This document shows, piece after piece, positions 29,369 through 35,487 of a stretch of DNA of 35,675 bases. Position numbers and translations under genes: made by a program. The notes beneath the pieces are model-generated. The model saw only the letters and a program-made list of their open reading frames with translations. It searched no databases and was not told the DNA's origin. How positions within the stretch are numbered: the first letter of the stretch is position 1; each line of letters opens with the position of its first letter. Source of the DNA: Minisyncoccota bacterium (GTDB lineage: Bacteria > Patescibacteriota > Minisyncoccia > Phycocordibacterales > UBA9973); NCBI GenBank assembly GCA_025453495.1, contig JALOQM010000006.1, positions 1 to 35,675 on the forward strand. Direction: 5' to 3'.

Positions 29369-29896
29369 TTATTTCCGCTTAGGTAGAAGCAGTGCAATTA
29401 CGAGTATAAATGATGTGAGTGAGAGCATCGGGATTGTCATATAGCCAAACTCAATAAATGGGATTTGACCGCACACTGAAATACCATCCGCACCTATATC
29501 ACACGCAAGAGCACCCACATTAAACATTTGACCGTAGTAGTGATAAAGAGCGATACCACCCCCAATACTAGAGAGTCCGAGTGCAATTTTTCGAGCAAGT
29601 ATGCTTTCTCTAAAAAGCAGTACACCAAGTACGGCTACTTGTGGGTAGAGAAAGAATCGTTGAACATAGCAGAGAGTGCATGGTGCAAAGCCGATGACAT
29701 CGGAATACACAAGACTAAACACTGTACCAAAAAGCGCTGTTAAAAATGCCAATATGATGCTATACCGCTTTGCCACACGGTTCACATACCAGTCTTTTTT
29801 GAAGATAAGAGATGCAAGTAGTAGCAGGGTGACTACTTGCGCGAGAATACCAAATAATGAAACAACGACATTAAAGTTTTGTGCAAATGGACTCAT
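29369..29896 (-). CDS. DsbB/BdbC-family disulfide bond formation protein
   Basis: FAPCTLCYVQRFFLYPQ motif, four TM segments, second Cys pair ACDIGADGISVCGQ. Confidence 0.88.
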   Translation of the reverse strand: MSPFAQNFNVVVSLFGILAQVVTLLLLASLIFKKDWYVNRVAKRYSIILAFLTALFGTVFSLVYSDVIGFAPCTLCYVQRFFLYPQVAVLGVLLFRESILARKIALGLSSIGGGIALYHYYGQMFNVGALACDIGADGISVCGQIPFIEFGYMTIPMLSLTSFILVIALLLPKRK

Positions 29897-29902
29897 GGTT
29901 GG

Positions 29903-30277
29903 CTATTGAGGGAGCGCGCAGGATGTCTTTTCTGCAAGTACAGTAAGTGGGACTTCTCCGTTTAGTGTTGTCCCATCAGCAAATGTCCATGTCGGATAAC
30001 TTGCGATACCTTTTTCTTTGCAAATATTTGTCTGACCTCGGCCGTCTGGGGTAGAGCACTCAATGTACGGAAGGAGTTTTTGTGACTTACCAAATGACTT
30101 CTTTTGGGTTTGGCAGTGTGGACACCAGAATGCTCCATAAAACTGTGCACCCGAATCTTTGACGCAGGTTGCAAAGCCATCAAGTGGGCCAGGTGCTTGT
30201 GAATAGCGAACAAGTGCGTATATGCCGCCACCGATGAGTACGAGAATAATGATCCAGATTGTGAGTTTTTTTGCCAT
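29903..30277 (-). CDS. Membrane-anchored thioredoxin-like protein
   Basis: N-terminal TM; AQFYGAFWCPHCQTQKKSFGKSQKLLPYIECST...GIASYPTWTF. Confidence 0.85.
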   Translation of the reverse strand: MAKKLTIWIIILVLIGGGIYALVRYSQAPGPLDGFATCVKDSGAQFYGAFWCPHCQTQKKSFGKSQKLLPYIECSTPDGRGQTNICKEKGIASYPTWTFADGTTLNGEVPLTVLAEKTSCALPQ

Positions 30278-30423
30278 GTATAGTAACTATGTTATGTGTA
30301 ATGCAGTCTAGTATACATTAATATAAGCTATGTTGCATCAGTGTGTTTTCACACCACACACAGTACTGTTTCTAAGTTAGTGCAGTAGCACCTTTTTGCA
30401 TTTATTGGTTGCCATTAGCGTGG

Positions 30424-30429
30424 TATAGT
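30424..30429 (+). promoter_or_regulatory. Leaderless extended -10 of crtE (GTGGTATAGT)
   Basis: TATAGT at 30424-30429, 6 nt, ATG at 30436. Confidence 0.65.
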
Positions 30430-30435
30430 ATTGAA

Positions 30436-31458
30436 ATGCATTTCTCTGAATTTCGTACTTGGTTTAATAGCAGTTTTTCTGATTTATTACTCAAAAAAGC
30501 TCATGCATTTTCTGCAATCGGAAGCGGTGTTGATGTCTTGCCTATTGCTTCTTATGTTGCTTCGATCGCACAAGATGGAAAGCGATTCCGCCCATTTTTG
30601 GCATATTGTGCAAGCGGTCTCACCACCGATGAACGTGACAAACATTTTTTGCTATTTGCAGCTATCGAACTCCTGCATATATTTGCGCTGATTCATGACG
30701 ATATAATGGACGGAGCAGACACTCGACATGGTATTGTCTCTGCTCATAAGAAATTTACCAAATTATATGGTGATACAATCTCCAGTTCGATCGGTATACT
30801 GCTTGGTGACATTGCATTTACATGGGCGTACGAGTGTCTTTTTGAATATATGCAGGCATTTCCGAAATTTCAGTCTCGTATCATAGAAGAATATACCAGG
30901 CTTCTGCAAGAGGTTACTCATGGTCAGCTACTAGATATTCTTTCGCCTGCGCAACAGCCACTTGGTATAAAAGCAATTGTCGAGAAAATGACACTGAAAA
31001 CTGCACGTTACTCTTTTGTGCAACCGATGCGCATAGGATTTATCATTTCCGGCGACCATGCCGCTGATCAATTATTTGCTGAAGCATACGGTATATCGAT
31101 CGGTATTGGGTTTCAATTGCAAGATGACGTACTAGACACACTCCCTGGTTCTCAAACTGGAAAAACACGATTTGTTGACATACGATCTGGGCAACAGACG
31201 CTGATTTCATGGTATATGCGTCATCATGCAGACACTCTTTATCAAGAAAAGTTTCTAAAAGTGTTTGGTGTAGCTGACCTGTCTCCAGCTGCTGAAGATG
31301 ATTTGGCAGAACTTCTCGAATCTTCTGGTGCATTGCCGTATGTGCGTACGCAATCGGAACAGTATTTTAATCAAGCCTTTGAAGCAGTGCATACTGATAG
31401 ACAAGATGCGCAACTATGGCAAGAGATACTCAATTTCGTTCGACAACGCAAAAAATAA
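30436..31458 (+). CDS. crtE: Geranylgeranyl diphosphate synthase-like polyprenyl synthetase (track start 30409)
   Basis: LLHIFALIHDDIMDGADTRHG (DDxxD), GFQLQDDVLDTLPG second Asp-rich motif; next to crtB and crtI. Confidence 0.88.
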   Translation: MHFSEFRTWFNSSFSDLLLKKAHAFSAIGSGVDVLPIASYVASIAQDGKRFRPFLAYCASGLTTDERDKHFLLFAAIELLHIFALIHDDIMDGADTRHGIVSAHKKFTKLYGDTISSSIGILLGDIAFTWAYECLFEYMQAFPKFQSRIIEEYTRLLQEVTHGQLLDILSPAQQPLGIKAIVEKMTLKTARYSFVQPMRIGFIISGDHAADQLFAEAYGISIGIGFQLQDDVLDTLPGSQTGKTRFVDIRSGQQTLISWYMRHHADTLYQEKFLKVFGVADLSPAAEDDLAELLESSGALPYVRTQSEQYFNQAFEAVHTDRQDAQLWQEILNFVRQRKK

Positions 31459-31460
31459 CT

Positions 31461-32312
31461 ATGGCGAAACAACCACTGGTAAAGCGTATGCAGTCTAGTA
31501 TCAAAAAGTACGGCAGAGGGTATTATCGCGCAACGTTTTTATTCCCTCGAAAAATCAGGGAGGCTACGTGGGCGTATTATAGATTTGTCCGAGTACCAGA
31601 TGAAATCGTCGACAGTGGAGAATCTATTGACCCTACTGCTGGTCTTTCGGCATGGGTCAGCGCATGGACTGCTGTTCTTCACGGAGAAAATGAGGCGCCA
31701 GATGCGTCACTTATAACTTTCAGGCAGGTTATGCAAGAGTATAAAATCCCGACAGAATACTCATTTGATTTTTTGAAATCCATGGAACAAGATCTTACCG
31801 TCTCTCGATATCGAACATATGTAGATCTCAAGCAGTATATGTACGGCTCTGCTGTTGTAGTTGGGTATACAATGAGTCATATTATTGGATTTCAGGATGG
31901 TGCACTGCCGTATGCGCGAGCTCTTGCAGAGGCCTTTCAAATGACCAACTTTCTTCGAGATATTAAAGAAGACTACAATAGACGCGGGCGTATTTATCTG
32001 CCAGTCGAAGACATGGTGCGATATGCTGTCACAGAATCACATATTCGCGAAGAGCGAGTAGATGCTGCATGGCGTGCGCTTATGCAGTTTGAGATTGCGC
32101 GTACCCGCGCATTGTACGAAACAGGAGTCGCAGGTATCAGATACTTACATCCACAGGGAAGGAGAGCAGTATATGCAGCAGCTCTTATATATAAGCAGAT
32201 CCTCGATACAATTGAAAAGAATGAGTATGATGTCTTCACGTGTCGCGCAATAGTGAGCCCTTTTCAAAAAACAGTGCTATTATTGAAAGCGCTATGCAAA
32301 AGAAATCTGTAA
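31461..32312 (+). CDS. crtB: Phytoene synthase (track start 31416)
   Basis: YYRATFLFPRKIREATWAYYRFVRVPDEIVD, QMTNFLRDIKEDYNRRGRIYLPVEDM. Confidence 0.93.
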   Translation: MAKQPLVKRMQSSIKKYGRGYYRATFLFPRKIREATWAYYRFVRVPDEIVDSGESIDPTAGLSAWVSAWTAVLHGENEAPDASLITFRQVMQEYKIPTEYSFDFLKSMEQDLTVSRYRTYVDLKQYMYGSAVVVGYTMSHIIGFQDGALPYARALAEAFQMTNFLRDIKEDYNRRGRIYLPVEDMVRYAVTESHIREERVDAAWRALMQFEIARTRALYETGVAGIRYLHPQGRRAVYAAALIYKQILDTIEKNEYDVFTCRAIVSPFQKTVLLLKALCKRNL

Positions 32313-33799
32313 TCATTATTGGTGGCGGTATTGGTGGACTTGCACTTGCTGGAATGCTCGGCAAAGCTGGCTATAAAGTCACGGTCTTGGAAAAAAATGA
32401 GTCAGTCGGTGGTCGGGCGCGTATATTTCGTCAGAATGGCTTTACATTTGATATGGGACCAAGTTGGTACATGATGCCTGATGTATTTGAGCACTATTTC
32501 AAGATTCTTGGCGAGGATATTCATAGCTACTATGCGCTTAAAAAGCTCTCACCCTCTTATCAGATTACTCTCAAAAGTGACGGTAAAAGCTATTGTTTTT
32601 TTTCTGATATGGAGCGCAATAAGGCGCTTTTTGATCAGGTTGAACCAGGCGCTGGTAATGTCCTTGAAGTATTTCTCAATCAGACAAAACAGCAATACGA
32701 AATCGCAAAACATGCATTCATGTATAAAAATTATGATACTGTATTTGATTTCTTTAATTGGCGCGTACTGACCGAAGGAGCAAAGCTTCCATTGTTTAAA
32801 AAACAGCGTGCCATCATAAACAAAAAGTTCAAGAGTGAAATCTTGCGCAAGGCATTACAATACCAAACTGTCCTTCTCGGTACAGCACCAGGTGATACGC
32901 CAGGCATCTATTCGCTCATGAACTATGTTGATCTTGTGCTTGGAGAATGGTATCCAGATGGTGGTATACACGCAGTACCAAAAGCACTTGAGACGATCGC
33001 GCGTAAATACGGAGCGGAAATTCGTACGAATGCACCAGTTGCAGGTATCATTATCGAAGAGGGGAGTGCAAAAGGGGTACAGCTTGCAACTGATGAATTA
33101 CTTGTTGCAGATATTGTAGTTTCCAACGCTGATGTAGCGTATACCGACCTTACCCTGCTCCCAAAAGCCTATCAAACGAAATCTGAAAAATACTGGAATT
33201 CACGTACGCTCGCACCAAGTGCATTTATCTTGTATCTCGGAGTAAAGGGTGCACTTCCTGGTATTGAACATCACAATCTCCTCTTTACCAAAGATTGGGA
33301 AAAAGGATTTGGTGAGATATTTGCTACACCAACTTGGCCTGAAGATCCTTCAATGTATATCTGTATGCCATCTAAGACCGACCGCTCTGTCGCCCCAGAA
33401 GGACATGAGAATCTTTTTGTTCTTGTGCCTATTGCAGCAGGACTTACCTATACAGAAGATTTTGCGCAGGAGTATGCCAACAAAGTGATTGCTGAGATTG
33501 CAACTTATTACAATATCCCTGACCTTGCTGGTCGTATCGTGGTACAGCGTTCTTATAGCGTCAAAGATTTTATGTCTGACTACAATGCATTTAAGGGTAC
33601 CGCACTCGGACTTGCGCATACACTCTCACAAACTGCCATCTTTCGCCCCAATAATGTGCATCCAAAAGTGAAAAATCTGTTTTATGTTGGTGCAGGGACA
33701 AATCCTGGCATTGGCATGCCAATTTGCCTTATCTCAGCCGAACTTGCCTATAAGCGAATAGAAGGTATACCACATCCCTTTCCATTGGAGCGTATTTAA
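32294..33799 (+). CDS. crtI: Phytoene desaturase (track start 32240)
   Basis: VIIIGGGIGGLALAGMLGKAGYKVTVLEKNESVGGRARIF FAD motif; C-terminal LFYVGAGTNPGIGMPICLISAELAYKRI. Confidence 0.95.
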   Translation: MQKKSVIIIGGGIGGLALAGMLGKAGYKVTVLEKNESVGGRARIFRQNGFTFDMGPSWYMMPDVFEHYFKILGEDIHSYYALKKLSPSYQITLKSDGKSYCFFSDMERNKALFDQVEPGAGNVLEVFLNQTKQQYEIAKHAFMYKNYDTVFDFFNWRVLTEGAKLPLFKKQRAIINKKFKSEILRKALQYQTVLLGTAPGDTPGIYSLMNYVDLVLGEWYPDGGIHAVPKALETIARKYGAEIRTNAPVAGIIIEEGSAKGVQLATDELLVADIVVSNADVAYTDLTLLPKAYQTKSEKYWNSRTLAPSAFILYLGVKGALPGIEHHNLLFTKDWEKGFGEIFATPTWPEDPSMYICMPSKTDRSVAPEGHENLFVLVPIAAGLTYTEDFAQEYANKVIAEIATYYNIPDLAGRIVVQRSYSVKDFMSDYNAFKGTALGLAHTLSQTAIFRPNNVHPKVKNLFYVGAGTNPGIGMPICLISAELAYKRIEGIPHPFPLERI

Positions 33800-33859
33800 A
33801 ATATTAAAAACTATCTTTTAAAGAGGTTTATATTTTTTACTATATAGCAATATTACAGC

Positions 33860-34711
33860 CTACCAAATATTCTTCGCAAAAAGCTCTATAGATACAGCTG
33901 CACCAATGAGCGTGTTGATGAGTGGGAAGTATGTATAGAGTCGGAAAAGCGCTTCGTCAGTCTCTGCTTTAGTTGAACGATGCATGAAGTATGAGAATGT
34001 GATCGCGCCGATGATACTTGCAACGGGAATGATGTCACGTACGAGATATGCCGCAAGGAGGTAGAGGAACCAGCAGAGGTATATGGTGTTGCGCGCACCG
34101 ATCATGATAGCGATAGTACGAAGTCCTGCCTGGAAGTCTGCCTTGATATCAGGCACTGCACTGTAGGCATGCATCCCTACAGCCCAAAGTATACCCGCGA
34201 TAACTCCGAGCGCAGGGAAGTGTACTCCTCCTGCAAGATAATAACCAAATACTCCTGTTGCGACATAGTGTCCTGCAGAGAAGAGTGAATCGATCACAGG
34301 ACGGACCTTTGCACGGATCGGGTATGCTGAGTACATACTTGCGAAGAACACGAATACGATAAACGAGGTGATGAGAGGGGTGGTAAGCGGGACCAAAAAG
34401 AAAAAGGGGATGTTCGTCAGTATGATCCATTTCCAGAGAGTGCGACTTTTTTCAGGAGTTACAAGGGCTTCATAAGCGTTATCACCCTTTTTAGGATTGA
34501 GTTTGTCAGTCTCGTAATCATAGATGTCATTGATGCCATAAATGAGAATATTGGCCGGGAGAATGAAATAGAATGCAAATACCCAGTATCGCCAGTCAGA
34601 AAAAAATCCAAAGCCGTTGAGTGCTGCCACGGTGCCAACAAGTCCAAAAGTTGCTCCTTCATAGAGCCAGAAGCGCGGGCGCGAGATGCGAATTACTTCA
34701 CTAAGTTTCAC
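33860..34711 (-). CDS. UbiA-superfamily prenyltransferase, probable lycopene elongase (CrtEb/LbtA/Lye-like), GTG start
   Basis: ISRPRFWLYE, NDIYDYETD (NDxxDxxxD), DIKAD second motif, multiple TM; convergent to crtEBI. Confidence 0.8.
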   Translation of the reverse strand: MKLSEVIRISRPRFWLYEGATFGLVGTVAALNGFGFFSDWRYWVFAFYFILPANILIYGINDIYDYETDKLNPKKGDNAYEALVTPEKSRTLWKWIILTNIPFFFLVPLTTPLITSFIVFVFFASMYSAYPIRAKVRPVIDSLFSAGHYVATGVFGYYLAGGVHFPALGVIAGILWAVGMHAYSAVPDIKADFQAGLRTIAIMIGARNTIYLCWFLYLLAAYLVRDIIPVASIIGAITFSYFMHRSTKAETDEALFRLYTYFPLINTLIGAAVSIELFAKNIW

Positions 34712-34717
34712 TAAATA

Positions 34718-34723
34718 ACTATA
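34718..34723 (-). promoter_or_regulatory. Leaderless extended -10 of the UbiA gene (GTGGTATAGT)
   Basis: Reverse strand TTGGTGG TATAGT TATTTA GTG. Confidence 0.65.
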
Positions 34724-35058: not shown

Positions 35059-35487
35059 CTACAACTTTAAGAGAATTTCATTGAGCGATCTTGATCTGTT
35101 TTGGGGAAGAGAGTCCTTGTTAAGCCATTTAGCCTCAGAAATTTCTCGTTGGTTCTTAATGATATCCGTTTGGTGTGTCTTGGCAAAAAACAAATGGACA
35201 ATATCTTTTTTATATTCCGCTTCACTTGTATAGCTTCCCAGTTGCTTTAGTTCTGAAATATCAATTCCAACCTCTTCCTTAACTTCTCTCATTGTCGCAT
35301 TCTCCAACGATTCATTTCTGTGACATCCCCCGCCTGGGATTGTCCAATAGTCGCCAGAGTAAGTGGTTTTTATAAGGAGATATTCATTGTCTTGATTTTG
35401 GACAAGACACTTCACACCAGTGGTTTTTGGTCTTACCAAGAACCAATATATTCTTCTTAAAAAGTTGAGTATCTTATATACATTCAT
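35059..35487 (-). CDS. NUDIX hydrolase
   Basis: GGGCHRNESLENATMREVKEEVGI NUDIX box. Confidence 0.88.
   Translation of the reverse strand: MNVYKILNFLRRIYWFLVRPKTTGVKCLVQNQDNEYLLIKTTYSGDYWTIPGGGCHRNESLENATMREVKEEVGIDISELKQLGSYTSEAEYKKDIVHLFFAKTHQTDIIKNQREISEAKWLNKDSLPQNRSRSLNEILLKL

Follow-up and report, generated by a model that had tools for sequence, protein, structure and literature searches.

A predicted carotenoid cassette with a lycopene elongase-like prenyltransferase in a patescibacterial genome

Layout of the cassette and its genomic setting

The window, by which is meant the whole stretch of 35,675 nucleotides analyzed here, is contig C1 of a genome of 685,189 bases (12 contigs, 96.95% complete, 0.01% contamination). 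The genes crtE, crtB, and crtI are packed on its forward strand as an operon, and a gene encoding a UbiA prenyltransferase faces crtI from the reverse strand. The relevant features are given below.

30278..30435, no strand: intergenic region between the divergent thioredoxin-like/DsbB genes and crtE, in which the promoter of the cassette probably lies
30436..31458, + strand: crtE, trans-isoprenyl diphosphate synthase, predicted geranylgeranyl diphosphate (GGPP) synthase (Pfam, NCBIfam)
31461..32312, + strand: crtB, phytoene synthase (Pfam, NCBIfam)
32294..33799, + strand: crtI, phytoene desaturase (NCBIfam; nearest equivalog CrtID)
33860..34711, - strand: ubiA-type prenyltransferase gene, predicted lycopene elongase (LyeJ/CrtEb-like), with a GTG start and convergent with crtI

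The open reading frames are intact in all four genes. On the basis of the N-termini of relatives, crtE most likely starts at the ATG at position 30436 rather than at 30424, and a comparison with relatives most likely places the start of crtI at the ATG at 32294. The 3' end of crtB and the start of crtI overlap by 19 bp, and the identical overlap is present in three other loci (L012, L013, and L014). A sequence-only reading of this DNA had proposed a crtE-crtB-crtI locus with an associated UbiA gene and with no cyclase, ketolase, or hydroxylase. The locus is confirmed by the intact frames and by Pfam and NCBIfam matches over their cut-offs, and indeed no gene for any of these three enzymes was recognized around the cassette. 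Divergent from crtE, at 29369-30277 on the reverse strand, are a DsbB-family gene and, beside it, one for a small thioredoxin-like protein that is anchored in the membrane and has a CPHC motif; together they look like a disulfide-forming pair.

Misbinning of the contig is unlikely given its housekeeping genes (pheS, pheT, valS, tsaD, trmD, rpsP, rplT, and infC, named by reading the translations), the low contamination of the bin, and the G+C content of the cassette, which is 0.431 versus 0.422 for the remainder of the contig. In addition, the nearest homologues of the cassette among the best 80 of 259 relatives belong to Candidatus Paceibacterota, Taylorbacteria, and Nomurabacteria. The CPR-like origin suggested by the sequence-only reading is borne out by these same features.

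Families, motifs, and relatives of the encoded proteins

The three proteins of the operon all score above the curated Pfam cut-offs: CrtE in PF00348 (E=2e-40), CrtB in PF00494 (E=2e-62), and CrtI in PF01593 (E=2e-28). CrtI also belongs to the NCBIfam family TIGR02734 (crtI_fam), with 486 bits against a cut-off of 238. Inspection by eye revealed the motifs DDIMD and DDVLD in CrtE, DEIVD and DIKED in CrtB, and GGGIGG in CrtI. Membership in PF00348, PF00494, and TIGR02734, together with the presence of the catalytic motifs, supports the prediction that CrtE, CrtB, and CrtI constitute a phytoene/lycopene core pathway. In the genome, which was searched family by family, PF00348 is represented only by CrtE, the sole trans-prenyl synthase found, and PF00494 only by CrtB. 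The best equivalog for CrtI is CrtID, a bifunctional phytoene desaturase/3,4-desaturase, with an NCBIfam score of 595 bits. As this lies under the cut-off of 640, 3,4-desaturation by the enzyme is a lean. One acidobacterial and one flavobacterial CrtI score 629 and 580, respectively, both also below 640, and two haloarchaeal enzymes score ~750. No second CrtI/CrtD over the cut-off was found in the genome.

The UbiA protein falls within PF01040 (E=9e-22, over the curated cut-off) and within the NCBIfam prenyltransferase family NF009516/PRK12875, where its score is 223 bits against a cut-off of 205. Its scores in the families of the quinone (UbiA, MenA), chlorophyll, and GGGP prenyltransferases are 19-38 bits. 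The gene at the LyeJ position in Halocatena salina, between crtI and an annotated cruF, scores 426 bits in NF009516/PRK12875. The family holding the haloarchaeal LyeJ-position genes thus includes the UbiA protein of the window, and the linkage to crtI is present as well. The motifs NDxxDxxxD and DxxxD pointed out in the sequence-only reading correspond to NDIYDYETD (residues 61-69) and DIKAD (residues 188-192), the acidic residues of which are invariant in six relatives. Amino acid identity to the haloarchaeal homologues is low, at about 28-35%. A model of the protein, with a mean pLDDT of 76, matches the UbiA structures 4tq4 and 4tq3 with DMAPP or GPP (E 1e-5); a sequence search of the PDB with UbiA gave no meaningful match (E about 0.8-1). 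We know of no residue signature for C5 addition to, or 1,2-hydration of, lycopene.

For comparison across groups, 85,462 species genomes were scanned with the UbiA alignment, which yielded 259 relatives, and the best 80 of the 259 were kept. The scan employed two peptide patterns taken from patescibacterial sequences and therefore favors close relatives. The loci were annotated with profiles made from the family's own genes and then counted. Groups were assigned from record titles, except that L021, L027, L029, and L037 were assigned by their position in the trees. All counts are lower bounds; some loci are cut by contig ends. Among these best 80 of 259, crtI and ubiA are convergent in 23 of the 29 patescibacterial, 19 of the 19 acidobacterial, 14 of the 14 flavobacterial, and none of the nine archaeal loci. 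A crtE gene lies in the fetched stretch in 17/29, 0/19, 0/14, and 1/9 of these groups, respectively, and cruF is nearby in 10/29, 19/19, 1/14, and 3/9. The archaeal loci have crtI-crtB-ubiA in a single direction. Such runs occur in Methanocalculus, Methanofastidiosia, Thermoplasmata, Borrarchaeum, and others (L083, L084, L085, L091, L093, and L094), and thus the archaeal elongase-like gene is not confined to the haloarchaea. In the flavobacterial loci (L040, L042, L049, and 11 more) no crtB was recognized near the convergent pair.

Closer to the window, relatives in another genus have CrtI and UbiA proteins that are 75-76% and 78-85% identical, respectively, and retain both the gene order and the 19-bp overlap of crtB and crtI. 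Within the same family, crtB (PF00494) is present in eight of 148 genomes, representing seven of 25 genera. One of these relatives, L011, has cruF (PF04240) directly adjoining the UbiA gene. Another same-family locus, L015:877-3263, displays the order crtB-crtE-crtI and adjoins a Nudix gene. Genome G008 carries near-identical crtB copies at two contig ends (L011 and L017), one with cruF-ubiA-crtI and the other with crtE, a duplication that is probably a strain mixture or an assembly break.

The UbiA tree was built from 80 sequences with a careful method and without outgroups, those of a first version having had branches of length 10. The window groups with L018 and L019 (100/99) inside a patescibacterial clade of 17 sequences (99/95) that includes L021, L027, and L029. 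The haloarchaeal, other archaeal, and Microbacteriaceae genes lie across a 92/95 branch from it. In the CrtI tree, constructed from 68 sequences by a quick method, the window belongs to patescibacterial sets of five (99) and nine (SH-aLRT 100) sequences. The Patescibacteria do not form a single clade in either tree, and at least five switches between patescibacterial and non-patescibacterial states are needed on the UbiA tree, a pattern suggestive of transfer between phyla. The earlier assignment of UbiA as a carotenoid enzyme agrees with its grouping among carotenoid-linked prenyltransferases, and the pathway assignment as a whole survives in view of the curated family matches and the crtI/ubiA linkage.

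Predicted pathway and the supply of precursors

The four genes probably encode a self-contained route that starts from imported isoprenoid diphosphates of C5-C15 and ends in an acyclic C50 carotenoid, predicted to be red, that would protect the membrane. CrtE would convert imported IPP/DMAPP or short allylic diphosphates to GGPP, CrtB would join two GGPP molecules to form phytoene, and CrtI would desaturate phytoene to lycopene. The UbiA protein would then add a dimethylallyl unit onto each end of lycopene, giving first the C45 and then the C50 compound, with or without hydration. The end product may be bisanhydrobacterioruberin, since CrtI is nearest to the bifunctional CrtI/CrtD enzymes; if 3,4-desaturation does not occur, a flavuxanthin-like or tetrahydro compound would be expected instead. 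No match to CruF (PF04240) was observed in the genome at E<=0.1. Full bacterioruberin is therefore unexpected, and the cassette is not classed as a bacterioruberin pathway. Given the absence of a CruF match and of a second CrtI/CrtD over the cut-off, the pathway most likely yields an acyclic C45/C50 carotenoid and stops before bacterioruberin. By analogy with known C50 carotenoids, the pigment probably rigidifies the membrane and provides photo- or oxidative protection. The role as a rhodopsin antenna put forward in the sequence-only reading is unsupported: no microbial rhodopsin (PF01036) was found in the genome, although none of the control genomes gave a match over the cut-off either, so that the sensitivity of this search is uncertain.

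The searches for precursor synthesis covered IspH, HMG-CoA reductase, UppS, Dxr, IspG, and type 1 Idi. The genome gave no match to IspH, HMG-CoA reductase, or UppS. When the E. coli proteins HisS, Dxr, UppS, Idi, and IspG were combined into one query, HisS was recovered as the positive control (E 6e-71) along with a Nudix protein weakly similar to Idi, and Dxr, UppS, and IspG gave no match. Among the 148 same-family genomes, HMG-CoA reductase is present in none and IspH in one (L098, genome G128), which comes from a bin with 6% contamination, and this lone match could be a contaminant. This Nudix protein, on contig C9 (L113:1423-1983) and similar to YfcD/IPP isomerase, scores 48 bits against the type 1 isomerase cut-off of 105.8. 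It lacks the cysteine of the SVCGHP motif of E. coli Idi and has no ENE, and it was rejected as a typical IPP isomerase. Nudix genes near the cassette (35059-35487 in the window and L015:161-814) fall below every cut-off and were likewise rejected. The expectation that precursor pathways would be missing from such a genome held for the enzymes covered. Since no precursor synthesis was found, import of IPP/DMAPP or short allylic diphosphates, whether from a partner or from the surroundings of the cell, is the most likely supply. Patescibacteria usually live off other microbes and are thought to be host-dependent for lipids and cofactors. Rickettsia, which relies on isoprenoids from its host, is a precedent (PMC6854040).

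Three other explanations must be weighed against such a route. The pathway might end at lycopene or another C40 compound, with the neighboring UbiA protein prenylating some other substrate, such as a quinone, lipid, or sugar-lipid. The breadth of the UbiA enzymes is consistent with this, as are the solved-structure relatives, which are UbiA homologues such as digeranylgeranylglyceryl phosphate synthase, and the haloarchaeal homologues L102 and L104, which sit outside carotenoid clusters. The adjacency of crtI and ubiA in three bacterial groups and the archaeal crtI-crtB-ubiA runs argue otherwise, as do the scores of 19-30 bits in the UbiA, MenA, and chlorophyll synthase families versus 223 for PRK12875, and no further trans-prenyl synthase was found for a quinone tail. 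A C40 end point is considered unlikely.

It is quite improbable that the cassette functions on IPP/DMAPP made in the cell by a missed route, whether through MEP or mevalonate enzymes that are divergent or through genes that fall in assembly gaps. With a genome 97% complete in 12 contigs, single absent genes could be gaps, the type 2 isomerase and lower mevalonate enzymes lay outside the searched set, and the C9 Nudix protein shows some similarity to the type 1 isomerase. Gaps in one assembly cannot explain, however, the near absence of HMG-CoA reductase and IspH across the family; the Nudix protein is without the Idi cysteine and ENE motif, and the same query recovered HisS. There is very little likelihood, finally, that the genes are an inactive relic, acquired by a cell with no precursor supply and now being lost. 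The failure to find IspH, HMG-CoA reductase, UppS, Dxr, and IspG and the patchy occurrence within the family would fit such a history. Against it stand the intact frames, the protein identities, gene order, and overlap kept in the other genus, a composition like that of the rest of the contig, and the well-supported patescibacterial clades in both trees.

Relation to known systems and biological meaning

In Haloarcula japonica, C0507 is CrtI/CrtD, C0506 is LyeJ, and C0505 is CruF (PMC11946383). Like this haloarchaeal crtI/crtD-lyeJ-cruF cluster (also L100 and L101), the window encodes a CrtI near CrtID, a phytoene synthase, and a predicted UbiA-type lycopene elongase, the last belonging to the same NCBIfam family as that of the bacterioruberin cluster. 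It differs in having crtE in the operon, a convergent rather than co-directional ubiA, and no cruF found, and in residing in a bacterial genome in which no IPP pathway was found. The UbiA protein is about 33-35% identical to those of L100 and L101 (Halocatena and Halarchaeum plasmid copies). The acidobacterial cruF/ubiA/crtI/crtB loci (L033-L036 and others) are similar in that crtI and ubiA are convergent and crtB lies behind crtI. Among the best 80 of 259 relatives, all of these loci carry cruF and none has crtE in the fetched flanks, whereas the window has crtE and no cruF found.

The C50 cluster of Corynebacterium glutamicum has the order crtE-crtB-crtI-crtEb-crtY. It likewise comprises crtE, crtB, crtI, and a UbiA lycopene elongase (PMC3598387). 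The actinobacterial C50 cyclase subunits CrtYe/CrtYf were not recognized among the annotated neighbors in the window. Unlike in the actinobacterial clusters (Microbacteriaceae L092 and L095-L097), the layout is a different one, and the UbiA protein lies far from the Microbacteriaceae branch.

That some Patescibacteria have lycopene elongase genes is already known. A 2023 study described lyeJ, crtD, and cruF from Baikalibacteria of Lake Baikal and from other Patescibacteria and suggested a role in cold membranes (PMC9948471). A lycopene elongase, predicted in the case of the window, and a desaturase nearest to the CrtI/CrtD type are common to those organisms and the window. The genes described there are accompanied by cruF and in Baikalibacteria are unclustered, and the passages considered contain no account of a convergent crtE-crtB-crtI/ubiA cassette or of a tie to absent precursor genes. 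The surprise first attached to carotenoid genes in a CPR bacterium is accordingly lessened as regards the genes themselves; it stands as regards the precursor genes, which were not found. In the carotenoid literature on Parcubacteria and Nomurabacteria, as far as it was covered, we found no description of the conserved cassette in which crtE accompanies the convergent genes, of its cruF-less form, or of its occurrence without found precursor genes. The less expected feature is a cassette without cruF that includes a GGPP synthase of its own.

Tentatively, and with somewhat more doubt than confidence, it may be proposed that many Patescibacteria run a full C50 pathway on scavenged isoprenoid diphosphates, the pigment being the sole use of the scavenged IPP/DMAPP in a host-dependent bacterium. 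The cassette would then include a GGPP synthase for want of any other isoprenoid metabolism in the cell. Lycopene-elongase-like genes reach well beyond the haloarchaea and actinobacteria, and the Acidobacteria and Flavobacteria share the convergent layout. A C50 pigment, or its Raman signal, would be a visible marker for finding and sorting such cells. With a conserved pigment pathway and no precursor synthesis found, the lineage is a concrete example in which isoprenoid scavenging can be tested.
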